Shown here: one piece after another, positions 41,131-64,000 of the stretch | How the letters are laid out: the number at the start of each line of letters is the position of its first letter | Numbering within the stretch: the stretch's first letter is position 1 | Source: Basidiobolus meristosporus CBS 931.73 | Taxonomy: Eukaryota; Basidiobolomycota; Basidiobolomycetes; Basidiobolales; Basidiobolaceae | Direction: 5' to 3' | DNA length: 64,000 bases | NCBI GenBank assembly: GCA_002104905.1 | Contig: MCFE01000153.1 | Location: 88,523-152,522 of the forward strand | Notes under the pieces: model-generated | What the model saw: only the letters and a program-made list of their open reading frames with translations | What the model was told of the DNA's origin: nothing | The model's database searches: none | Made by a program: the position numbers and the translations under genes

Positions 41131-44100
41131 ATGGTATGTTGGATTTATCTTGTCATTCATACTAGCCATGATTCCTTTGCTCATTCTATGTTTTGCAGAA
41201 ACAGAATGAGGCATATTTTGGCCCAGTCGGAGCAGAAATCGTTGCTAGAGGCTTTGGTTCCGTCCATTGACCGAGCCGATGAGCTCTCTGTGCTGCCCAT
41301 CATAATGGCCGCAAACATGTGTATCCTTGTATACCGATATACGAATACGCAGGATTTCACCCTTGATTTCTCGCATTCAGAGGCCCGAGATGAACCATTG
41401 CAAATCGTAATTTCTTTACGTCCCGATATGTCTGCTGCAGAACTGTTGCAATTGATTGAAGAGAGAGTGATGGTATCTCATCAAAGCAGGCTGCCTCCCA
41501 TCTCAGGTTTAGCCATCAGCCTGCATGCTGTGGATTCTGCCTACGACGAAAGCACAAACTCAGAGATACGGATGCATATCAGCTCACACAAGGATGCTCA
41601 TGAACAGGTGGTTAGTACTGTAGATGTGAGCAAGTCGTTATTAAGCAAGTGCAGTGGGGAGTCCAGCATTATAGGCCATTGGAGCACGCTACTGGAGCAT
41701 CTTGCGCTACAGCCTGATTTTCCTGTTTCACGGATTAGTATCCTCTCTCCTTCCGAAATGGAGCTTGTGACTTCGGCTGCTTGGTCATCTACCCCAGCAA
41801 TTACTGATTCACAGGTCCCGGCGCATCAGAATACCTCTGCAGATGAGATGTATCTTCATACCATATTTGAGAATACCGCTCACAAGTATCCAAATCACAC
41901 AGCAATACTATACGAAGACCAAACAGGCCAGGATAAAGCCTACACTTATCAGGAGATTGACAACGCTTCCTCTCGACTGGCCAAGCACATCAGCGATCAT
42001 TACATTACTGGACCTGGGAAGTTCATTGGCCTCTTGATGCCACAAGTACCAACAGCATATATAGCAATGCTTGCTATTCTCAAGACTGGATCGGCCTACG
42101 TTCCCATAGATCCTTCATATCCTTTAGAGCGCGTAGAATATATACTAAGAGATTCTAATGCTGAACTTCTTCTTTCTGAGAAAGCAACCGTTGAACGGCA
42201 ACTCGGCCAAGATTTAACCTGTCAAGTGTTATATGTAGACGGTTGGCTAGCCGACAAAGCCTCTCTCAACGAGTGCTTCAAACTACCATCTGGAGCGCTT
42301 CAAATGTCAGATGCTGCTTACATGATATACACTAGTGGAACTACTGGGCGGCCAAAAGGTCTGTCTTGTTACGCTTTACAGAGTTCGTCGAATTGCTGAC
42401 CATAGAGCCCTTGTACTGTAGGCGTTGTTATCGAGCATCGAAATGTGGTAAACCTCGTGAGGGCGGAGAGTGTCGTTTTCAATATGAAGACAGAAGATAG
42501 GGTGTATCAGCAGTTCTCTCTTGCATTCGATGCCTCTATCGAAGAGATATGGCTACCATTCATGGTCGGAGGTACACTTGTTCCAGCTGCACAGAAGCCA
42601 GGGCCAGGGCTCTCAGAGATTTTGGAATATAAAGGTGTGACAGTTTTGAGTTGCGTGCCTACTTTACTTGCTATGCTGTCAGAAGATGAGAAGCTGCAGA
42701 GTCTACGGTTACTAATTCTGGGGGGAGAAGCTTGTCCGAAATCATTGGTGCAACGATTTGGTGTTGGATGCCAAATCGTGAACAGCTATGGTCCGACTGA
42801 AACAACTGTAAGTGAACAATCTTGCATGAGTTAGTCTTGAGCTAATAAATAGCTTGTTATAGGTGGTCGCCACATGGAAAGTATGTAGTCCAACAGACGA
42901 CGTTGTTACAATTGGACATCCTATGCCTGGATATTCGGCATTCATTCTATCAGAATATGACCAGCTTCAACCCATAGGAGTCGCAGGAGAGCTGGTCATC
43001 GGAGGTTCCGGTGTCACGCGGGGATACCACAATCTACCCGAGTTTACAAAAAAGAAATTCATTCAACACAGTTTATTGTCCCCCGTAGGGCAACTATACA
43101 AAACGGGTGATCTTGCTCGCTATAACCAAGCCGGGGAAATTGAATATCTAGGTCGCATCGACACGCAAGTCAAGCTACGTGGTTACAGAATTGAGCTCTC
43201 TGAGGTGCATTGTTTTATTGTGTGAATCTAGTAACCCACTAACAATTATCTGTAGGTTGAATCCGCACTGCAACGCTGCAGTGGTGTAAAGGTTGCGGTG
43301 GTTGATATTCATGTAGATTCATACAATGTGGAGCATTTAATCGCCTATATCACCACAAGTACGAAAGAAAGCCTCGTCAATACCCAGGCTATAAAGGAGG
43401 AGCTTCTTAAAACTGTGCCAAACTTCATGGTTCCCTCAATCTTTCAGATTGTGCGAGATTTGCCAACACTGCCAAGCGGAAAGATAGATCGCAAACACTT
43501 ACCAAAAGTGATGGCTGGAACTCTAGTGACCGCAGAAGATGCATCAAAAAAGGTCGTTGCCCCTCGAACGCCCACCGAGACTAAACTCGTAGATATCTGG
43601 TCGCGCTTTTTCAAAAGCAACGCTATATCAGTCACGGATAACTTTTTCTCTCTTGGTGGACATTCTCTCTTGGCTGCTATGCTAGTCTCAGAATTGCGCA
43701 AAAGTGAAAATACCAAGGGTATCTCAATGGGGCACATCTATCAGTACTCTATACTCGAAAGTTTGGCCAACTTCATTGACACCTGTATCGGGCCAACGAG
43801 TGATCGGTCACCAACAGCCCACAGATCACCCATGAACAGTGGGACCGACCCGGGAAATGGAGATATTGAGAAGCTAAATAACTTGGATAGGGCGAAGTTC
43901 CCTCCTATACTTGGCTATGTTCAATCCTTTGCTCTATTACTTTGCCAGTTCGTTGCCATCTTTAGCGTGCTTCTCATTACTACACTGCCAGTATCAGTGT
44001 TATACTTGTTATACAAGTTTACCAATGTGCCAATAATAGTCGTGGTTTTCGTCTTTGCCTTGGACTTTTGCTGGATGCCCTTAATCGCAGTAATCGTGAA

Positions 44101-46417
44101 ATGGCTACTGATTGGCAAGTATCGCCCTGGGAAGTGGCCTCTTTGGGGATGCTACTACTGGCGCTGGTGGGTTGTCCAGAGTGTTGTGAGGGTGCTCAAA
44201 TTATACCTTCTCGAAGGGTCTCCGCTCCTGAATATCTTCTACAATCTTATGGGCGCCAAGGTTCACATGACGGCTTATGTTGGAACACGACACATAGGCT
44301 GTTATGATCTCCTTACTATCGAAGCCGGAGCGTCAGTGGGCTTGAATGCATACATGTACGGATACAAGGTTGAGAATGGGTGGCTTATCATAGGATCCGG
44401 GATTCGTGTGGGTTCTGGTGCACGGGTAGGGAACAAGTCGAATCTAGGCCTTAGTTCCGAGCTCCAAGATGGCGCTGATCTTGATGATTTATCTGTACTT
44501 CAAGACAAGCAAGTAATCAAAAAAAACGAAAGATGGGCTGGGTCCCCGGCTAAATTCATATCAAACGTGGAGGAGAGTGAACAGGCCACCACGTCTCATG
44601 TTGCCACATGGCTTTTTTGTTTTCTGTATTTCATCATTGCTCTGGTAGTGAACACTACTTTTGGGCTGTTGGCATCCTTGACTGGTTGGTGGCCTCGGCA
44701 TTTTATCTAATCGTCAATATGTCTGACAAGGTTTTAATCAGGTATCCTGGTGTTGGAAGTGGTCCCTATTCTACTGCCTACATTCAATCCTTATATTAGT
44801 GTGATTGTAGCTACTCCGTTTGTGACTACGGTGGCGATGATGCTTTTCTGTCTTGGGATAGTCATACTGAAGCTGATCATTCTTCCAAAGATATCTCCAG
44901 GAGAATATAAGCTGCAGAGCTTCTTCTATCTACGCAAATGGTAATCGGCTGGTGTCCTTGAGGTGGTGCTTTGCCATTTTTAAACATATTTCAATTTCAG
45001 GTGCTTGGATATATTGATGCAGATCTCTCTTGAAGTCGTGAATTCCGTCTATGGAACACTGTACGCACCTCACTGGCTACGCGCCCTCGGAGCCAAAATC
45101 GGTAAAACTTCGGAAGTCTCCACAGTTACATATATCTCCCCGAACCTTCTCAGGGTAGGGAGTGGATGCTTCCTCGCGGATTCTGTCGTGGTTGGTCCTC
45201 CACGGATCCGCTATGGAAAGATAACGCTTGACTATTCCACGATAGATGAGAGGTCTTTTGTTGGGAACGGAGCGCTGTTTCCTGCAGGCATTGTGATGGG
45301 TAAAGGCCGTATACCTCAATGCTATTGATTTTGAGTTAAACTGGATCTACATTTAGGAAGGGATTGCCTTCTTGGTGTGCTATCAACTCCTGATCATGAT
45401 GTGAGAGCTCTGGCTGATAATACCTCATGGCTTGGGTCGCCAGCCATGTTTCTCCCAAATCGGCAAGTGGCTACTACAAGCTGGCCCAAAGAACGTACTT
45501 ATGCACCCACAAACGGTTTGTATGTTGCCCGCTATCTAATAGAGTTATGGAGGGTATTCCTGCCGAACATGGTCAATATCACAACATTTGTGGTCCTGGT
45601 AGTGGTACTAGAGATTATATATGAGGGAACTTCTGATCGGGATGTTTTACCAGTCCCAGATGAGTTCTTGATGACAGACGGGTTGCTTCTCAACTTATCG
45701 CATGGTGCCTTGGTCGGCTCTTTCGTACTTGTATTTTTGATTGTGAACGGGCTTTTAGCAATAGGGGCCTGCTGCTTTGTTTTGCTTGCGAAATGGATAC
45801 TGATAGGTACTTACGCTGCTCGTGAGGCACCGCTTTGGAGTTCTTTCGTGTGGAGGTACAGCCTAGCCAGATTCGCACATTTGACACTGCTTTTTCCATG
45901 AACGATGCTTTAATGTCGGCTACATAGGACAGAGCTAGTGACCGCCTTACATGAGGGGATCGCTAGTAGACAACTCCTTCAAAGTTTGCGCGGCACCCCC
46001 TTTGTGAGCTTTTGGTTCAGGTTGCTTGGATGTCATATTGGGAAGCGTGTATGGATGGACACTCTGCAAATTACGGAGCATGATTTGATTCATATCGAGG
46101 ATGATGTCAGTATCGGTGCGGATACTATACTGCAGGTAAGTTGTTATCATCACTTCACCCATAAACGCGTCTTTCCCCATTCACTCCACCCCCTTGATCC
46201 TTAGACGCATTTATTTGAAGATCGTATTATGAAGATGGACCATTTGGTGATTGGCCGCCGATCCAATATTGGTGCCTCCTCTGTCATATTGTATGGAACA
46301 ACTTTGGAGGAGGATGTTTCCATAGGTTCTCTCTCCCTTGTAATGAAGGGGGAAACTTTGCCAACACATACCACATGGAATGGAATCCCATTGCAACACG
46401 CAAGGGATGGCTCGTAA
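41131..46417 (+). CDS. Pls-type NRPS-like membrane synthetase (homopoly-amino-acid synthetase candidate)
   Basis: Nine exons (41131-42358, 42422-42807, 42863-43204, 43256-44684, 44742-44940, 45001-45299, 45357-45855, 45928-46135, 46205-46417) join in frame to 1,600 residues. Order: about 235 residues resembling the C-terminal half of a condensation domain; adenylation domain (YTSGTTGRPKG, NSYGPTETT, YKTGDLARY, VKLRGYRIEL, LPSGKIDRKHL); carrier domain with phosphopantetheine serine in FFSLGGHSLLAA (about 788); then three repeats, each a hydrophobic membrane segment pair followed by a left-handed-helix-like hexapeptide domain ending in (W)AGSPAKF, WLGSPAMF and WNGIPLQ. This A-T-TM architecture is that of epsilon-poly-L-lysine synthetase (Pls) of Streptomyces and its fungal counterpart in Epichloe. 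Start uncertain: ATG 41206 has better context, and 41132-41195 resembles an intron, so an upstream exon is possible. The amino acid used is not deducible by eye. Confidence 0.9.
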
Positions 46418-51696: not shown

Positions 51697-52936
51697 ATGG
51701 CCTTCATGAAGGTATGGCATTTTCTGGTCTTTTCTTGGATTCCGACTAATCTTCTTGATCTAGATTGGTGTGCTATTGCTGATGATCTATTCCGGCAGCC
51801 AGATCACTGCCGCCAGCAAAATGTGTACCTCAAAGTACTCTCCATGCTATTTCAGAGGCGTTGGCTGTGGCTCTGGTGAGTACTGCTTTGCCATCAATTG
51901 TTTATCGGACAAAAGTCTTCCAAACACCTGTTATCCTGCACCTTCGTGTGTCAGCTTCAAAGACAACTTCACAAACGCTACCGATCTTGTCATGGCATCC
52001 ACGTTCGATGGCAACCCGAATTCAGGCCCTAGATGGATGAGCCAATGGAAGAAAAACTATGCTTCCATTGAGGACGGCCAACTCGTATTAGGAATGAAAT
52101 CTTCGGGTAAAAAACACAACGGCAATTTAGTTGGCTTTGGTAGCACTGTGGTTTCCGTTAGATGGATGTTATACGGGAACGTTACTGCTCGAGTTAAATC
52201 AGCTTCTGTCACTGGTGGTGTTGTGTCGTCATTCATCATCAAGAATCCCGAAGGGGATGAGATTGACTTCGAATGGGTTGGTGGAAACCCCAATATGGTT
52301 CAAACTGACTACTACTACGATGGTATTAAGAAGTATATGCACGACGGAAGAGAAGTCTATGGACACGCCAAGAATGCGTCAGTTGGGAGCGATACTTCTG
52401 CTGGCTTCAACGAATATATGATTCAATGGGAAGAAGAACTTATCAACTTCTGGGTCAACAAGAAGATAGTCAGAACTGTTCTTAAGAAAGATACTTACAA
52501 CCATACGACCAAAACTTTTCAATATCCTGCGAGGCCAGCGCCTGTTCAACTTTCAATTTGGGACTCTAATGAGCAAGGTAAATACACTATTGATTGGGCT
52601 GGTGGGCCTACTGATTGGAGCAAACCGAATACCGAGTATAAAGTCTACTTCGAATCTATTGATATGCAATGTAAGCACAGTGAGAATCTTCCTTGGGATC
52701 CGCCCAAGATCCCTACCCTGACTTCTACTTCTATGCCAGCATCAAAATCCCCCACTTCTACAGTTGAAGCTTCTCTTATGTCCTCTTCAACTTATTCTAC
52801 TATATACAGCCCTCCTACCCATATCTCCAATTCTAAGACACATCCTACAGCTGATAAGAGCGTCGGTTCTGCACAAAAATTCAACTCTATCTTCATGTGT
52901 GCTACATTGTTGTTCACATATAATGCACTTAGCTGA
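51697..52936 (+). CDS. CRH1: GH16 (GH16_18/Crh-like) cell-wall transglycosylase, GPI-type
   Basis: Exon 51697-51711 and exon 51764-52936 give 395 residues. The intron after codon 5 restores a good signal peptide (MAFMKIGVLLLMIYSGSQITAA). A cysteine-rich CBM18-like segment (25-61) precedes the GH16 domain; the catalytic box E-I-D-F-E lies at E171, D173, E175 (GDEIDFEWVG), complete. SIWDSNEQGKYTIDWAGGPTDW is typical of Crh proteins. A Ser/Thr-rich stalk (about 320-370) and a hydrophobic C-terminus (FMCATLLFTYNALS) suggest a GPI anchor. Crh enzymes transfer chitin chains to beta-glucan in the fungal wall. It is the last intact gene before the telomere. Confidence 0.92.
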
Positions 52937-55152: not shown

Positions 55153-55880
55153 CTCCCACCAAGCTAAATGTTCATACTGACTAGTCCTAATTTTGGCCTA
55201 AGATATTCAAACTTGTCTCTAGCTAATGGTTTGGGAAATATGTCTGCAATCATTTCATCTGTAGGACAGTAAACTAAGCTAACTAAGTTATTCTCTATAC
55301 CTTCATGTATGAAATGATGGCTAATATCTATGTGCTTAGTTCTGGCATGAAAAGTTGGATTTCTACCTAATTGTATACGTCCTTGATTATCTTGAAATAA
55401 AGTAATAGGCATTGTTTGACATAGGCCTAAATCTGTAAAAAGCTTTCTTAACCACATTGCTTCTTTTGTAGCTTCACAGGCTGCCATATACTCTGCCTCT
55501 GTGGTGGAAAGTACTACAGTTGGTTGCTTTCTTGAATTCCATCAAATTGCTCCTTTACAGTAAAGAAAGGTGTATCCTGTGGTGGATCTTCTGTCTTCCA
55601 AATTTTGTCCCCAATCAGCATCAGAGTATCCCACAAGATCCTGTTCTGAATCATTATAAGTATATCTTAAGCAGATATCAGCAGTTCCTTTTAGGTATCT
55701 AAAAATCTGCTTAACTGCTGCAATATGATCAGATCCATAGTTCTGATTATGTTGGCTGACAACTCCCACTGAATATGAGATATCTGGACGTGTTCCAAGC
55801 ATGATATACATCAGACTGCCAACCATAGATTGATAAGGAAAGTCAGGGCTTTCAGATGGCACCAAGCTCTCTAGATTTAG
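55153..55880 (-). pseudogene. Copia C RNase H and RT C-terminus, cut by telomere sequence
   Basis: The best-preserved Copia 3' region in the window: 55164-55487 (MAACEATKEAMWLRKL, FQDNQGRIQLGRNP, HFIHEGIENNLVSL) and 55542-55865 (YQSMVGSLMYIMLGTRPDISY, YSDADWGQNLEDRR). The homology stops within the segment equivalent to 2149-2170, at GATTTAG, where telomere-like AGTTAGGGG begins. Confidence 0.85.
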
Positions 55881-55881
55881 A

Positions 55882-55932
55882 GTTAGGGGAGGGGGAGACA
55901 GTCACCAACAGGTGAAATCTTTATTTCAGTTT
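55882..55932 (-). repeat. T1 LINE 3' tail, 5'-truncated to about 45 bp
   Basis: GTTAGGGGAGG followed by GGGAGACAGTCACC AACA GGTGAAATC and TTTATTTCAG: only the extreme 3' end of a T1 element, then a new GGGTTAGGG seam. Confidence 0.85.
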
Positions 55933-56312
55933 GGGTTAGGGGGGGAGACAGTCACCAACAGGTGGAATCTTTATTTCAGTTGAGACAAAGAAGCCAGCAC
56001 TACTGTTGTAGCTTTGATACAAGAGTGTGTAGCTGAGGGGAATTTGTAGGTAAGTCAATAAGAAGTGATGATAGCACTTCAGTGCTCAAGACACTGTTCA
56101 GTGGGAAGGGAGGCAGCAAGAGAGGTAAGTATGACTTGTGAACAACATTAATGAGTGGAATGTGATAAGGATTGATATTCATCATAAAGCAAGTGTGCTG
56201 CTGCAGATATTGCTGCCAAAGGTCTGTCAAGTACTTCAGGTAGGCCAGCTTGGGTTTTTCTGACTGCAGAATATAGTGAGTAAACTTCTTGACTTCAGGA
56301 TCTCCAAGTATA
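55933..56312 (-). mobile_element. T1 LINE copy, 5'-truncated (about 370 bp)
   Basis: 3' tail plus the end of ORF2 (56000-56230, ending THTLVSKLQQ-like). Homology breaks after CTCCAAGTATA, where GTTAGGG and the next T1 tail begin. Confidence 0.88.
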
Positions 56313-56377
56313 GTTAGGGGGGGAGACAGTCACCAACAGGTGAAATCTTTATTTCAGTTGAAACAAAGAAGCCAGCG

Positions 56378-59146
56378 CTACTGTTGTAGCTTTGATACAA
56401 GAGTGTGTAGCTGTGGGGAATTTGTAGGTAAGTTAATAAGAAGTGATGATAGCTCTTCAGTGCTCAAGACACTGTTCAGTGGGAAGGGGGGTAGCAAGAG
56501 AGGTAAGAATGACTTGTGAACAACATTAATGAGGGGAATGTGATAAGGATTGATATTCATCATAAAGGGAGTGTGCTGCTGCAGATATTGCTGGCAAAGG
56601 TCTGTCAAGTACTTCAGGTAGGCCAGCTTGGGTTTTTCTGACTGTAGAATATAGTGAGCAAACTTCTTGACTTCAGGATCTCCAAGTATAGTTCTCCAGC
56701 AGGAGCCAGGTGTTGTGTGGTGTGTTCTCTTCCAGGCCTTAATCAGTGGGTTGTTGCAGTTGTGAAGTCTGAGGTATAATCTGGTTCTAAGGTAGAGAAG
56801 TCTGATCTTATAGGGCATAAACCCAAAAGCACCAAGAATAGCATGTCTGTAGGGGCATTCAGGCAAATGAGGCACCAAGGAGGTAATGCACCATACTGCA
56901 AACTTGTCAAGCTTAGTGCAGTCTCTAGAAGTAAGAGAGAGAAGTGGTAAGCCAAATTCCAGGACAGGGAAGACAAACTGCTTGAGTAGAAGGAGGCAGC
57001 TGGGAGCTGAAGTTGTAGGAGAAGTAACAGCCAGTAGCTTGTGGAGTGCCTGTCTTGCCAGGAGAATTCTCTTCTTCAGGTGTGCTCCAGAGTCTATTCC
57101 AGTAGGAAGGAAAGGAAAGCCAAGATATGTAGCAGAAACCTGAGCAGGTAGAGTGGTGTTCTCCAAGGTGATGGGAGAGCCCAAAGGTACTGACTTTGCA
57201 ATGGAAAGCTGGAGATTATTCTTCTGCAGATACTGGTGGATGGTCTGGGAGTCCTGTTGCACATTGGAGGAGGATATTCTGATGTCATCAGCAAAGAGAG
57301 TAACCAGGCAGTCAGCTGAGAGTCTTGGGAAATCATTCAGAAAGATGGCAAACAGTATAGGACCAAGCACAGAGCCTAGAACAACTCCATTAGGAACTGA
57401 GAACACTGGTGATTGCTCACTTGGGTGCAGAATTCTTGCTTGTGGATCCAGAAACAGAGACCTGACAAGCAGGGTGAGAGAGGTACTGGAGAAGCATTGC
57501 AACTTGGACCAAAGCAGATTTCTGTCAACTGAATCAAAGGCCTTAGTAATATCAAACAGAACAGAGGGATACTTGCACTGGAGAGAGTGATCTTGGCTAA
57601 GTATGACTGCATATTACAAGGAGAGGCCAGGAGCAAAGCCAAACTGTGCTGGGTGAAACTTGAGGGAGTCAGAGTAGAGCTCTTGAGCAAGCAGAAGCTC
57701 AAACACCTTTCTGCAGGTGGGCAGCAGAGATATTGGCCTGTAGGAGCTAGGATCCAGGTGCTTTCCTTTACCCTTGTACAATGGCAGAAAATTTGCAAAG
57801 GACCATTCCTCAGGAGTAGAAAGCTGGGCTGAGCATTGCTGAAACAGTGGAAGCAGAAGTGCAGACATGGCCTTGGTACTAGTCTTCAGAAGCTCATAAG
57901 AGATTGTGTCCACACCTGGAGCAGTAGAGTTGGGAAGCCTCTTGAGCACATTATGGATTCTCCTTTGATCAAGTGCAAGTGGGATGGGCAGAGTCTTGAA
58001 GTCAGGATGAAAGCCAGGAGTTGAGTACTGCTTTGTAGAGAAGAAGATGTTAGCCAGCTGTTTTGTTGAAGGTAACTTCCTGGAAGAGGGCCTCATTGCC
58101 CTGTAGAGTCTTGATACTGTTCTTGTTATAGAGTTGGAAGATTGCAGAGGCAAAGAACTCATAATATGATCTCAGAGCTGAGTATGCAGAGTGTGGTGAA
58201 TTGCCTTGGAGTGGTGTATTGCTGTCAGGAGGAGTTTCTCTGTTTTTGGGTTAGGGAAACTCAGGTAGCTTTGTTGCATGGCTGAAACAATGGATTCCCA
58301 TTTTCTTGAGGTAACAGCAGTAGTCTTGCATGGCAGTGAGAGGGAGGCAGACACCAGAATCAGATGCTTCACAAAGAGCCAGGCATAGTTGAGATCATCT
58401 GGCAGAGAAAGTAGCAAACTGGCAAGCTTCAAGTAGTTCCCAAAGTATTTCTTCTGATTCTTGGTAGCTTTGTGGGTGAGCACAGTAAGTTTTGGCAGCT
58501 TCTTCTTCACAACTGGTAGCATAGAAAGGGACCAGGCTGGGTGGTCAGAGGCTCTCAAGGATCCTAGCTCAGCTCCAGAGAATTGCTGGACTTCATTCAC
58601 AAAGTAGAGGGCAGCAGCAGAAGGGCAGATCCAGTCAACACATCTTTTCTCAGATTGAGCACCTAGTGCTAGCAGATGGCTTTCTCTCAGGAAGTTCAGT
58701 AGGAATGTAGACCTTGGCTTCATTCTTGCAGTCAGAGTAGTCTTGTTCTCAGGATGGTGAATGTTGAGATCTCCAAGCAAGATAACAGGTGTTGATATAG
58801 ATTGCTGGTATTGCTGAACTTTCTGGCATATAACTTGCACTTCCTGAAGGGCAAGACTTGGAGGCAGATAGCAGAGCACCAGACTGATAGTTGGCAACTG
58901 GAGAGCAGCACAGTAAGGGGAGTAAAGAGGAACACAGAGCTGAGGAGTATTGATGGTAGAAGAGATGAAGCAGATAGAGGAGGTATTCTTTGTTCTAGGA
59001 GTAGAAAAGCAATATAGATTAGTCAAAAGTATAGAGGGTAGCTGGACATCAATCAAACACAGGAGGGAAAATCTTGAAAGAAGTCTCTCTAGAGTTGGTC
59101 TTGATGGCTGTATGCTGTTGCAGTTAAGCAACAGAACTTCAGGTAG
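56378..59146 (-). pseudogene. T1 ORF2: APE-type endonuclease and reverse transcriptase
   Basis: One frame of about 920 codons, directly after the ORF1 TGA. Endonuclease (58172-59131): LNCNS start, LLGDLNIHHPEN, and RASDHPAWS, equivalent to the conserved SDH of APE nucleases. An in-frame TGA follows at 58172-58174. RT: NSTAPGVDTISYELLK, FLPLYKGKGK, SYRPISLLP, FGFAPGLSL then TAA (57614-57616), DITKAFDSVDR, GSVLGPILFAIFLND and the catalytic FADDIRI. A C-terminal region of about 300 residues follows (CPYRHAILGAFGFMPY), with no CCHC cysteines seen. Both stops could come from C-to-T or G-to-A changes. Confidence 0.9.
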
Positions 59147-60654
59147 TCAGGCAGAGGTTGTAGCTTCTTCAGAGGCAGCATTGACAATGTGACCTGCAGA
59201 GTCCCAGAGCTCTTCAAATGGTGCCTCACTTAAGTCAGCAAGGAGGGAAATGGCATTATTCTTGAGGAAGTATGCCACATCATAGGAGGGGGCTTGTCTC
59301 TTGATGGCAGCAAAGAAAGACAGAATGGCAACATGAGCTGGAGGCTTGTTGAACAGTAGAGAGTCAGAGGAATCAGATTCTTCAGGCACTATCTTGAAGT
59401 CAGTTTTCAGCCAGTTAAGGTTCTTCTCCACAAAGGCAACAAATGGGTCAGCAATGTTTTGGTCTAGGATAACCTCCAGAATCTTCCCTTTTCTCCAGGC
59501 CAGGTTAACAATTCTTGAGAGCTGAATATTGCATGCCTTGAGTGCTTTCCTGATGTTGGAAATGGGAGTCCAGGGAACTTGCTTCAAGTACACCACAGTC
59601 CGGGTAGAAGCTGGTGGTAGGTTTGCTGGGGGCTTGTAAGTCCTTCTGTGTGGCAATGGAGCTGCAGTAGTCAGATTGGAGTCCACATTCTCAGTAGAGG
59701 GTTTTCTTGATGTATCTTGCTGAATGGTACTGGAGCTGGATGTGCTGATAATTCTTGCTAGAACCTTGCCTGCTTAAGTCTGAGGTATAGCTGAGGTGAC
59801 TGTAGAGGTGGTGGCAGCTGGTGCAGGTGGAGAGGCAGAAACTGAAGCAGGAACTGAGGTCACCTGGGAGAAGGCTGTAGAAGCAGGTTTTCCGGGAGGA
59901 ACAGAGTTCACTATCCAGTTGTTCTGTAAAACACTGGAGTAGCTTTTCTGTGGAACAGAATCTTGCTCTTGAACAGGAACAGAAGCAGGAGGCTGGGGCT
60001 GAGCAGTAGTGGTAAGGCAGTGGCACTCCAAGGAAGCTTTTTGCAAGGCATCTCTGGCAGTTTTCAGGGCAGTATTGGCTTCATTCTTGAGCTTCTTGCA
60101 TTGGGCATCCAGTCTTTTGTTTTCAATAGCCAGGGCAGTATTGGCAGCCTCTAAATCACAATTCTCTTCTCAATTGCAAGGAATCTCTGAAGAAATGCAT
60201 CAGTAGAAGTGCTGGCATCTGGGAGAGCAGTGGCAGGAATAGACTCCATTGACAGTGGGCTTCTTGGAGGCAAGGAAAGTGGACTGGCAGATTCAGGCAC
60301 AAAAGGAGATATTCTGGAAGGAGGAGAAGGAGTATCCAAGGCAGTAACAGAGGCAATTCTTGTTGGTGAAGCAGCAGCAGGGGAGGCAAGTCTGTTGAGA
60401 AACTGGGCAGGAGAGAGTGCTTGAGGAGAGGGAGTCTTCAGCTTGCCAAGCATGTCTTCCATCAGAGTGATACCAATATTCCTGGTGCATTTGCAGAGAA
60501 AAGTAAGCTTCCTGAGTCTGCCAGCTCTTCCATTCCTTCTGATAGTTCCTTTGTTTCCACAGTTGGGGCAAGAAATCTTCTTGACAGACTTGTCAAAGCA
60601 ATCAAGAACCTTCCTTTCAGGTGTAGTGGGCTCCTGTTGAGGTTTTGGTGGCAT
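59147..60654 (-). pseudogene. T1 ORF1 (RNA-binding/coiled-coil protein)
   Basis: ATG at 60654 (MPPKPQQEP). Zinc-finger-like cysteines near residue 25 (CPNCGNKGTIRR ... FLCKC), a Ser/Pro-rich linker, a coiled-coil segment (ALAIENKRLDAQCKKLKNEA, after a one-base deletion near 60165), a second Ser/Pro/Ala-rich stretch interrupted by TAA at 59774, and a C-terminal domain at 59147-59686 (LEVILDQNIADPF, FEELWDSAGHIV). The layout recalls ORF1 chaperone proteins of L1-like elements, without a clear RRM. The C-terminal domain is shared with element T3. Confidence 0.8.
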
Positions 60655-60723
60655 ATCCAGAGTTTCAGCTTCAAATTTCAATTTTTGAGATTTTTGGGTG
60701 ATTTTTGATGGGCGGGATCCAAA

Positions 60724-60736
60724 TTAGGGTTAGGGT
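60724..60736 (+). repeat. interstitial telomeric repeats
   Basis: TTAGGGTTAGGGT between the T1 5' end and the tandem-repeat segment. Confidence 0.85.
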
Positions 60737-61030
60737 TGCGCGCTGTGACTGCTTTTTATGATCGCAAGGTCAGAACCTAGGAAAAAATAAAAATAGTTAG
60801 TAAAGGTGATTTAATGGATGGATGGATGGATTTGGAGTCATATTCAATCAAAAAATCAAATTGTTGACTAATTTAAAGAGGGGAAAAAATAAAAATAGTT
60901 AGTAAAGGTGATTTAATGGATGGATGGATGGATTCGGAGTCAGATTCAATCAAAAAATCAAATCGTTGACTAATTTAAAGAGGGAAAAAATAAAAATAGT
61001 TAGTAAAGGTGATTTAATGGATGGATGGAT
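60737..61030. repeat. 2.5 tandem repeats of about 102 bp with a GGAT microsatellite
   Basis: Units start at 60781, 60883 and 60984, beginning GAAAAAATAAAAATAG and containing (GGAT)n, each about 102 bp and nearly identical. The last is cut at GGATGGAT by GGGTTAGGG. Lies where the 5' leader of T1 would be expected, so it may be a monomeric promoter, or a separate subtelomeric satellite. No ORF. Confidence 0.8.
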
Positions 61031-61568
61031 GGGTTAGGGTAGGGGGGGAGGAAAGTCACCAAGTGGTGAAATCTTTATTTACTTATGACAAGTATCTAAA
61101 GAAGCCAAGTTAATCTGAAGTTATTCCTAGAAAGCTAGGTCTGAGAGATATCTTCCTGGTAAGCCAGGTCTGAGAGTTGAGAAGCTGAGTGGTACTATAA
61201 TTCCTAGTTAGCTAGGTCTGAGAGAGGTTTCCTGGAAAGCCAGGCCTGAGAAGTGAGAATCTGAATATATCTGAGCTAAGTTATACTGGTTTGCGGTAGC
61301 TGAATTGTGGCCGGAACGGCCAGTAGACTGGGGGAACTGAAATGAATTTCTGGGCGATCACTGGCCAAATTTACTAGGCAAATCTGGCCAATTAGCATTT
61401 CAAGGATTTCAGCCAATCAGAGCCTTTACTTTGCCCGATGGTTGATCAAGCCATCTCCCAATGAGCACACATCAATTTATTAATCAAATTTCTGCTGGAT
61501 CCAGGATTTGAACCCACAACCATGGGTATGGAAGGGTTAGGGATAACCACAAGGCTAAGTGTTCTTGG
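61031..61568 (-). mobile_element. T2: tRNA-headed SINE at telomere seam, copy 1
   Basis: About 530 bp on the minus strand. The head (61501-61568) has an A-box-like TAGCCTTGTGGTTA and a B-box-like GGTTCAAATCC about 36 nt apart, as in tRNA-derived Pol III promoters. The body holds four tandem hairpins (61126-61244) and the 3' end shares the LINE tail: AAATAAAGATTTCACC ACTT GGTGAC then a C-run. No ORF. Flanked by telomeric GGGTTAGGGT (left) and TTAGGGGGG (right). Confidence 0.82.
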
Positions 61569-62030
61569 TTAGGGGGGATGATCATCACCAAAGGGTGAAA
61601 TCTTTATTCAAATAATAAATAAAGAAGCCAAGTTTGCATATGAATATCTGAGATGCAGGAAGCCTACAAGATAAACTTGGACTTTGCTGTATCCCAAATA
61701 TCCTCAATATCAAAGTCTAGAGGAGAGTGTAGCAAGACTGCTTGTTCACTGTAGTATTTCTTGAGGAAGTTTGTGACTTGAAGGGAAGGAGAGTTTTTCA
61801 ACAAGCTGGTAAATCTTTTGAGGAGTTCTTTTTCCAGAGAGAATGGCACAAAGAGTGGAATGTCCAAATGATGTCTGAATATATGCTCTGAGAGCTCCCA
61901 ATCCAGCATATTTTTGACTTCTTCTGTAAAATCTTCAACAATATCTTTGTCAAGAATAACTTCCAAGAGATCCATGGCAATGTACTGAATGTTAATAATC
62001 TTAGGCATATAAATACCTAGGTCCTTGAGG
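61569..62030 (-). mobile_element. T3: ORF1-only relative of the telomeric LINE, 5'-truncated
   Basis: Tail TTAGGGGGGATGATCATCACC AAAG GGTGAAATC at the left, then 95 bp after the stop of an ORF1-like reading frame. No RT or endonuclease lies between that ORF and the 3' tail, so the element appears to lack ORF2. It breaks at GTCCTTGAGG, where TAGGGGGGG starts the next unit. Confidence 0.8.
61664..62030 (-). pseudogene. T3 ORF1, C-terminal part
   Basis: About 120 codons, open to the stop at 61664 (the frame runs on upstream into the T1 tail, which is not part of it). LLEVILDKDIVEDFTEEVKN and DIEDIWDTAKSKF match the C-terminal domain of T1 ORF1 (ILEVILDQNIADPF, FEELWDSAGHIV) at clearly lower identity than between T1 copies. 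It has no stops within the piece, suggesting it was functional when it inserted. Confidence 0.78.
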
Positions 62031-62911
62031 TAGGGGGGGAGACAGTCACCAACAGGTGAAATCTTTATTTCAATTGAAACAAAGAAGCCAGCGCTACTGT
62101 TGTAGCTTTGATACAAGAGTGTGTAGCTGAGGGGAATTAGTAGGTAAGTTAATAAGAAGTGATGATAGTTCTTCAGTGCTCAAGACACTGTTCAGTGGGA
62201 AGGGGGGTAGCAAGAGAGGTAAGAATGACTTGTGAACAACATTAATCAGGGGAATGTGATAAGGATTGATATTCATCATAAAGGGAGTGTGCTGCTGCAG
62301 ATATTGCTGCCAAAGGTCTGTCAAGTACTTCAGGTAGGCCAGCTTGGGTTTTTCTGACTGCAGAATAAATTCAGCAAACTTCTTGACTTCAGGATCTCCA
62401 AGTATAGTTCTCCAGCAGGAACCAGGTGTTGTGTGGTGTGTTCTCTTCCAGGCCTTAATCAGTGGGTTGTTGCAGTTGTGAAGTCTGAGGTATAATCTGG
62501 TTCTAAGGTAGAGAAGTCTGATCTCATAGGGCATAAACCCAAAAGCACCAAGAATAGCATGTCTGTAGGGGCATTCAGGCAAATGAGGCACCAAGGAGGT
62601 AATGCACCATACTGCAAACTTGTCAAGCTTAGTGCAGTCTCTAGAAGTAAGAGAGAGAAGTGGTAAGCCAAATTCCAGGACAGGGAAGACAAACTGCTTG
62701 AGTAGAAGAAGGCAGCTGGGAGCTGAAGTTGTAGGAGGAGTAACAGCCAGTAGCTTGTGGAGTGCCTGTCTTGCTAGGATGATTCTCTTCTTCAGGTGTG
62801 CTCCAGAGTCTAGTCCAGTAGGAAGGAAAGGAAAACCAAGATATGTAGCAGAAACCTGAGCAGGTAGAGTGGAGTTCTCCAAGTTGATGGGAGAGCCCAA
62901 AGGTACTGTCT
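62031..62911 (-). mobile_element. T1 LINE copy, 5'-truncated (about 880 bp)
   Basis: 3' tail and the last 265 codons of ORF2 (62094-62900), open throughout and differing from the full-length copy at only a few residues (for example MPYEIR versus MPYKIR). Breaks after GGTACTGTCTTTAG into telomere repeats. Confidence 0.9.
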
Positions 62912-62940
62912 TTAGGGGTTAGGGTTAGGGTTAGGGGTTA
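62912..62940 (+). repeat. interstitial telomeric repeats
   Basis: About 29 bp of TTAGGG units with two GGGG variants, between T1 and the second SINE: the longest internal seam. Confidence 0.9.
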
Positions 62941-63465
62941 GGGGGGAGGAAAGTCACCAAGTGGTGAAATCTTTATTTACTTATGACAAGTATCTAAAGA
63001 AGCCAAGTTAATCTGAAGTAATTCATAGAAAGCTAGGTCTGAGAGATATCTTCCTGGTAAGCCAGGTCTGAGGGTTGAGAAGCTGAGTGGTACTATATTT
63101 CCTAGTTAGCTAGGTCTGAGAGAGGTTTCCTGGAAAGCCAGGCCTGAGAAGTGAGAATCTGAATATATCTGAGCTAAGTTATACTGGTTTGCGGTAACTG
63201 GATTGTGGCCAGAAAGGCCAGTAGACTGGGGGAACTGAGAGGAATTTCTGGGCAATCACTGGCCAAATTTACTAGGCAAATCTGGCCAAATAGCATTTCA
63301 AGGATTTCAGCCAATCAGAGCCTTTACTTTGCCCGATGGTTGATCAGGCCATCTCCCAATGAGCACACATCAATTTATTAATCAAATTTTGCTGGATCCA
63401 GGATTTGAACCCACAACCATGGGTATGGAAGGGTTAGGGATAACCACAAGGCTAAGTGTTCTTGG
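62941..63465 (-). mobile_element. T2 SINE, copy 2
   Basis: Nearly identical to 61031-61568 from tail to tRNA-like head, including the B-box-like GGTTCAAATCC and all four hairpins. Both copies end at the same 5' base (CCAAGAACAC on the minus strand), showing that this is the true 5' end. Confidence 0.85.
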
Positions 63466-63717
63466 TTAGGGGGGAGACAGTCACCAATAGGTGAAATCTT
63501 TATTTCAGTTGAAACAAAGAAGCCAGCGCTACTGTTGTAGCTTTGATACAAGAGTGTGCAGCTGAGGGGAATTTGTAGGTAAGTTAATAAGAAGTGATGA
63601 TAGTTCTTCAGTGCTCAAGACACTGTTCAGTGGGAAGGGGGGTAGCAAGAGAGGTAAGAATGACTTGTGAACAACATTGATGAGGGGAATGTGATAAGGA
63701 TTGATATTCATCATAAA
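63466..63717 (-). mobile_element. T1 LINE copy, 5'-truncated (about 250 bp)
   Basis: 3' tail plus the last 60 codons of ORF2 (63529-63714), broken at CATCATAAA|GGGTTAGGG. Confidence 0.9.
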
Positions 63718-63762
63718 GGGTTAGGGGGAGGAACGTCACCAAGTGGTGAAATCTTTATTTAC
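63718..63762 (-). repeat. T2 SINE 3' tail, 5'-truncated
   Basis: GGGTTAGGGGGAGGAACGTCACC AAGT GGTGAAATC and TTTATTTAC, joined directly to the terminal telomere. The most distal, hence probably the last, element addition. Confidence 0.88.
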
Positions 63763-64000
63763 TTAGGGTTAGGGTTAGGGTTAGGGTTAGGGTTAGGGTT
63801 AGGGTTAGGGTTAGGGTTAGGGTTAGGGTTAGGGTTAGGGTTAGGGTTAGGGTTAGGGTTAGGGTTAGGGTTAGGGTTAGGGTTAGGGTTAGGGTTAGGG
63901 TTAGGGTTAGGGTTAGGGTTAGGGTTAGGGTTAGGGTTAGGGTTAGGGTTAGGGTTAGGGTTAGGGTTAGGGTTAGGGTTAGGGTTAGGGTTAGGGTTAG
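63763..64000 (+). repeat. telomere, (TTAGGG)n
   Basis: 238 bases, close to 40 perfect TTAGGG repeats reading to the window edge. The G-rich strand runs 5' to 3' outward, so this is the right-hand chromosome end. Confidence 0.98.

Follow-up and report, generated by a model that had tools for sequence, protein, structure and literature searches.

The HeT-A, TART and TAHRE elements of Drosophila attach to chromosome ends with their 3' ends on the centromere side, and combine the gag-only HeT-A with autonomous members. Athena and Coprina, endonuclease-deficient Penelope-like elements with another class of reverse transcriptase (RT), are linked to telomeres in animals and fungi, while in stringent pairs of long and short interspersed nuclear elements (LINEs and SINEs) the SINE carries the LINE 3' tail, which is recognised by the LINE RT. 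Among fungal end elements, the MoTeRs of Magnaporthe are arranged head to tail, their seams being as short as half a repeat or longer than 20 repeats, and MoTeR2 has both ends in common with MoTeR1 (PMC7367193); FoTeR of Fusarium has upstream tandem repeats (PMC12810828, PMC12857005), FoTeR and Cnl1 of Cryptococcus group with MoTeR in one CRE/R2-type group (PMC12857005, PMC12810828), and both MoTeR and FoTeR have a restriction-like endonuclease (PMC7367193, PMC12857005, PMC12810828). SART1 of Bombyx needs at least three telomere repeats and has poly(A) at its 3' junction (PMC7265360). Here we report on a stretch of 64,000 nucleotides from Basidiobolus meristosporus CBS 931.73 (the window), which is the last 64 kb of a contig with a telomere array at its end, and on five related families of non-long terminal repeat (non-LTR) elements, T1 to T5, which are apparently added straight to the ends of chromosomes by means of a telomere-like template at the end of their own RNA.

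Nine units with a common 3' tail make up the array in the window (positions 55896-63762): five of T1, three of T2 and one of T3. Every one of them is on the minus strand and has its 3' end toward the centromere. An earlier sequence-only reading had described this array, and the observation is confirmed, although by its own list the units number nine and not eight. Where it named at least three families, at least five with a common tail were found in the assembly: the LINEs T1 and T5 (the latter known in part only), T3 and T4, which hold only the first open reading frame (ORF1), and the SINE-like T2. The five families have the tail in common, but not their bodies. The LINE with an APE endonuclease and the ORF1-only satellite of that reading are both real, and its SINE does share the 3' tail of the LINE, though a tRNA origin of that SINE is weakly supported.

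These elements resemble HeT-A/TART/TAHRE in their single orientation with the 3' end centromere-side and in their community of gag-only and autonomous members, but differ in the presence of a TERT gene and TTAGGG telomeres, in a telomere-like tail instead of oligo(A) and in a SINE-like member. Like MoTeR1/MoTeR2, FoTeR and Cnl1 they are fungal end elements with short telomeric seams; unlike in MoTeR and FoTeR, the second reading frame (ORF2) of T1 starts with an APE fold and not with a restriction-like endonuclease. The host of T1 is an early-diverging fungus. TRAS and SART (Bombyx, R1 clade) share with T1 the APE endonuclease fold, the telomere association and the possession of ORF1 and ORF2, whereas they insert inside (TTAGG)n and T1 has seams that lack poly(A) and in most cases do not exceed two repeats. 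Penelope-like elements are also telomere-linked retroelements, but T1 has an APE domain and an L1-like RT. The tail of the SINE-like T2 equals the LINE tail, as in a stringent LINE/SINE pair, yet here the tail also adjoins a telomere-complement stretch and serves ORF1-only elements too. Among the open-access titles listed, none named a community of APE LINE, SINE and gag-only elements at fungal ends, and the one open-access paper combining Basidiobolus, retrotransposon and telomer appears to concern DNA methylation.

The assembly searched comprises 89.0 Mb in 1311 contigs. The tail pattern TCACCAANNGGTGAAATCTTTATT matched 1095 times forward and 84 times in reverse, a reversed control had no match, and 97 of the first 100 listed tail places were forward. 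Fourteen contigs longer than 100 kb hold 36 of these 100 places, all of which (36/36) lie within 18.4 kb of the contig end faced by their 5' side, and 33 within 10 kb. The single orientation seen in the window thus extends genome-wide; had the elements been mostly interstitial or in both orientations, the sequence-only reading would have suffered, but by strand the exceptions are a small minority, and two interior arrays do exist. BLAST lists score the best 40 candidates only. For the T1 tail 5 of 42 matches were minus: two near a left contig end (contigs C1257 and C679), two in the interior of C558 and C726, and one on C217, a contig of 13.8 kb. For the T1 endonuclease (EN) 1 of 40 was minus, located at a left contig end, and for the T1 5' end none of 40. 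First-look candidates fell from 473 (3' end) to 370 (EN) and 60 (5' end), as 5' truncation would predict. A Copia control gave 21 plus and 19 minus among the best 40 of 3005 candidates, which bears on strand only and not on distance to the contig end; contig breakage within repeats could by itself enrich any repeat at contig ends. Telomere arrays start 108 times forward and 3 times in reverse, so that telomere-bearing contigs are nearly all telomere-right, probably an assembler effect, and strand counts are for this reason interpreted jointly with the distance to the contig end.

Some of the contig ends facing tail places lack a visible telomere array; perfect terminal arrays of 119, 144 and 238 bp occur on three contigs. 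The interior arrays, C558:93000-99477 (T4-T1-T3-T2) and C726:54200-60787 (T2-T1, past a further T1 fragment), each have all their units in one orientation and carry telomere-type 3' seams, and the distal T1 on C726 abuts Copia-like DNA without a clear TTAGGG seam. These arrays may be fused ends or patched breaks. As separate observations, (TTAGGG)3 has 8002 forward matches, which suggests a great many ends; a minus tail lies at C27:10370 (L061), midway along a 19.9-kb contig; and stretches of L037 (about 895-1290) and L145 (about 180-1000), both as reverse complement, have lost single bases at many doublets, as is seen in long reads without correction.

For the seams, 168 tails were taken and 167 parsed (T1 98, T2 53, T4 8, T3 7, T5 1), the sample mixing best-scoring and first-listed places with the seam not being a selection criterion. 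A G-run of at least three adjoins the tail in 167/167, so no poly(A) lies between tail and seam. The number of telomere-matching bases left of the G-run (n) is at most 9 in 158 of the 167 seams and 11 to 39 in the other nine, with a sharp drop past n=9: 28 seams reach position 9, and 9 of them position 10. Genuine seams are short: most have no more than two repeats, and a single repeat is frequent. Values of n are 3 (29 seams), 5 (24), 7 (19), 9 (19), 2 (18) and 6 (17), with 4 (11), 1 (10), 8 (10) and 0 (1) being rarer. The upstream DNA at the junctions can be single-copy host sequence, Copia or a truncated element, and where a truncated element meets the next tail the join shows microhomology. 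Altogether 154 of 167 junctions are distinct, 145 of them with n of at most 9; of these 145, 62 are without known native continuation, 31 were set aside (T2 5' ends or telomeric) and 52 were scored. Upstream DNA and telomeric seam overlap by at least 2 bases in 28/52 (15.8% under a null of random joins, p 3e-10) and by at least 3 bases in 15/52 (4.3% under the null). In a separate comparison, overlaps of 6 bases were those of T2 ends. At 20 of 25 T2 5' ends a single TTAGGG is followed directly by the next tail. A search for an empty allele of the host flank on C591 gave just two matches, one complete and the other partial at 69%, and the proximal flank of the window array gave no informative allele.

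The tail elements common to the families are UGGCUUCUUU, AAUAAAGAUUUCACC-loop-GGUGA and a C-run. One representative per family was folded, with the telomere-complement end appended by hand to the tail sequences, and the predicted fold has two hairpins followed by the unpaired C-run and telomere complement (z -2.4 to -4.2); in T2 the first predicted stem is interrupted. When 26 distinct tails are compared, the tenth pair of hairpin 1 proves to be C-G in 9, A-U in 9, G-C in 6, U-G in 1 and unpaired in 1.

T1 ORF2 comprises an N-terminal APE-like EN and then an RVT_1 reverse transcriptase with a LINE-like fold. The EN has Asp where the catalytic Glu is usual and is 44-55% identical to the EN of relatives; a fold search gave the APE fold with TRAS1 and R1 EN tied, and phmmer of the T1 EN against the PDB gave no match. 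Close RT matches named B. meristosporus CBS 931.73 are 96% identical over 44% of the query and 90% identical over 53% of it. The ORF2 frame is open in 8/15, and copies resemble one another closely (99% for the best 40 matches). ORF1 and ORF2 are in the same frame with UGA CUA between them (window 59144-59149, minus strand) in 19/19 records from 17 different copies; this is a readthrough context. The C-terminal domain of T1 ORF1 is common to T3 and T4. The head of T2 has an exact B box; its A box was seen by eye only, a pattern search being without match there, ARAGORN and Rfam reported no tRNA for T2, and one sub-threshold Rfam match was taken as chance, so a tRNA origin is at most weakly suggested. 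The TERT RNA-binding domain found on C880 is spread over two stretches; in one of these an in-frame TAG occurs, which may be an intron. With this domain and the TTAGGG arrays present, the elements do not replace telomerase, unlike HeT-A/TART.

The common tail, predicted hairpins, orientation toward ends, seam cut-off, microhomology, APE fold and TERT gene were read from sequence; from there we infer the RNA 3' end, nick-free priming, use of the RT in trans and any benefit for the host. Chromosome-end-primed reverse transcription is, in our judgement, the probable way in which the non-LTR guild persists on chromosome ends. The enzyme would come from T1, and probably from T5, and T3, T4 and T2 would borrow it through a common RNA 3' end made up of two hairpins, then the unpaired C-run, then a stretch near CUAACCCUAA that is complementary to the telomere. 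The 3' end of a chromosome that has eroded or broken, with or without telomere repeats, would anneal by a few bases and prime synthesis of complementary DNA (cDNA), with blunt joining at some junctions; incomplete cDNA synthesis would leave 5'-truncated units, and the new end would then be extended by a further element or capped by telomerase. The short telomeric stretches, drawn from a window of about 1.5-2 repeats and favoured by microhomology, are what a primer that anneals along a short RNA template would leave, and telomerase works likewise; we therefore prefer end-primed copying, with the element RNA ending near CCCUAACCCUAA. The end-priming geometry proposed in the sequence-only reading is strengthened by the microhomology and the seam-length cut-off, and its interpretation is supported. 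It had also placed an addition of telomere repeats before the landing of the next element, which may or may not be a separate telomerase step: the RNA's own 3' end, if copied, would account for most seams as well.

More tentatively, and short of what we would call probable, the RNA 3' end may be a mimic of telomerase RNA, with a two-hairpin dock and a template of 1.5-2 repeats (about CCCUAACCCUAA), by which the LINE RT heals broken or eroded ends in a parallel end-maintenance system. Up to kilobases of element would then be added to such ends, the LINEs, gag-only elements and SINE would form a second end-maintenance system beside telomerase, and the interior arrays would be scars left where this healing took place at a fused end or an internal break.

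If telomerase acted first, a few TTAGGG bases would heal the end, the element RNA would prime there, and the seam would be a telomerase product. The TERT domain and the 9/167 seams with longer arrays agree with this order, and since telomerase healing is also expected to use few bases of homology, the microhomology is equally expected of it and to that extent tells against end-primed copying of the RNA. Such healing predicts longer, open-ended seams, however, whereas 158/167 seams stop at n of at most 9 although terminal arrays reach 119, 144 and 238 bp, and exactly one repeat is gained at 20/25 T2 5' ends; we regard this order as unlikely. Insertion in the manner of TRAS/SART, by an APE endonuclease that nicks TTAGGG within the array followed by target-primed reverse transcription, draws on the tie of the T1 APE fold with TRAS1 and R1 EN and on the position of the elements at TTAGGG. 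Yet an element that had inserted inside an array of 100-240 bp would be expected to have a long seam on its proximal side, and n exceeds 9 in 9/167 only; truncated elements join the next tail with microhomology; and SART1 needs at least three repeats and has poly(A) (PMC7265360), while here the G-run directly adjoins every tail. Insertion into a long array as the main mode was rejected on the seam lengths, this explanation as a whole is highly improbable, and free-end priming on a telomerase-like RNA 3' template fits better than a nick inside a long array. Spread of end arrays mainly by segmental duplication or break-induced replication, without new reverse transcription, would account for repeated units such as those on C324 and C2 and for the 99% likeness of copies, and MoTeR arrays rearrange so (PMC7367193). 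With 154/167 junctions distinct and 12 of the 13 coinciding ones being the recurrent T2 5' end, with a microhomology to the telomere template that recombination would not lead one to expect, and with five families of common tail but unlike bodies, it is very unlikely; segmental duplication had been named beforehand as what would speak against the sequence-only reading.

Several further points weigh against end-primed copying of the element RNA. Below the cut-off n is spread out and no single template end stands out. Blunt junctions make up 9/20 at n=3 or 9 against 7/32 elsewhere, which is not significant (Fisher p 0.12); a reading of the values 3 and 9 as peaks due to blunt joining at UAA was dropped, n=5 and n=7 being comparably common. 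Seam G-run lengths may carry long-read errors, and the T2-T1 pairs may be read-through composites. Pairs 7 and 8 of hairpin 1 each fail in 6/26 tails, and the pair-10 types track families, hence represent few events and not 26. The RNA 3' end itself is deduced from DNA, the kept APE fold and the likeness of the EN to those of relatives suggest that it may nick something, and the two arrays on C558 and C726 are interior.

Telomerase is thought to have common ancestry with retroelement RTs that used DNA ends as primers. If end-primed copying is true, a LINE lineage with a telomere-complement RNA template beside telomerase would be a living intermediate open to experiment, telomere residence in fungi would occur without a restriction-like endonuclease, and there would be SINE and gag-only elements specialised for chromosome ends. 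The elements may help to cap or repair chromosome ends alongside telomerase.

Within the window all units lie on the minus strand. T1 unit 1 (55896-55932), the most proximal, is a tail fragment only and abuts a Copia-like element, recognised by eye at 55190-55881, which underlies the array and belongs to a very abundant family (3005 first-look candidates). T1 unit 2 (55946-56312) is 5'-truncated, with GTT microhomology where its 5' end joins the next seam; its tail, in which one base is a variant, was identified by eye. T1 unit 3 (56324-61032) is full length with its 5' tandem repeat, and its reading frames are broken in this copy: ORF2, with APE-type endonuclease and reverse transcriptase, covers 56378-59146, and the ORF1 region, with a Cys-rich ribbon, a coiled-coil-like stretch and the C-terminal domain, 59147-60654 (both minus). 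The tandem repeat (60736-61032, minus) has a unit of about 102 bp and a variable copy number; since a minisatellite of about 102 bp lies directly beyond the T1 5' end in 33/40 T1 5' ends (40 of 52 minisatellite candidates scored), it is T1's own 5' repeat. Between leader and repeat stands TTAGGGTTAGGG (60724-60735, minus), which is no seam. A chance origin of TTAGGG was rejected, TTAGGGTTAGGG occurring in 0/100 shuffles. The short TTAGGG seams of the sequence-only reading are real, yet three TTAGGG stretches belong to element interiors: besides 60724-60735, TTAGGG at 58251-58256 is internal to T1 and also present in T1 copies of interior arrays, and that at 61537-61542 is internal to T2. Distally follow T2 unit 1 (61049-61568), SINE-like and full length with the B-box GGTTCAAATCC close to its 5' end, the 5'-truncated ORF1-only T3 unit (61578-62030) and T1 unit 4 (62040-62912), also 5'-truncated. 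The longest seam of the window (62913-62946) precedes T2 unit 2 (62947-63465, full length), which is followed by the 5'-truncated T1 unit 5 (63475-63717), T2 unit 3 (63729-63762, tail only) and the terminal TTAGGG array (63763-64000, plus strand), which is perfect over 238 bp and reaches the contig end.

Outside the array, a glycosyl hydrolase family 16 gene (PF00722, 3e-33) lies at window 51770-52936, about 3 kb from it, and AMP-binding and phosphopantetheine domains in adjacent open reading frames at window 41131-44710 suggest an adenylating reductase or synthetase-like gene.

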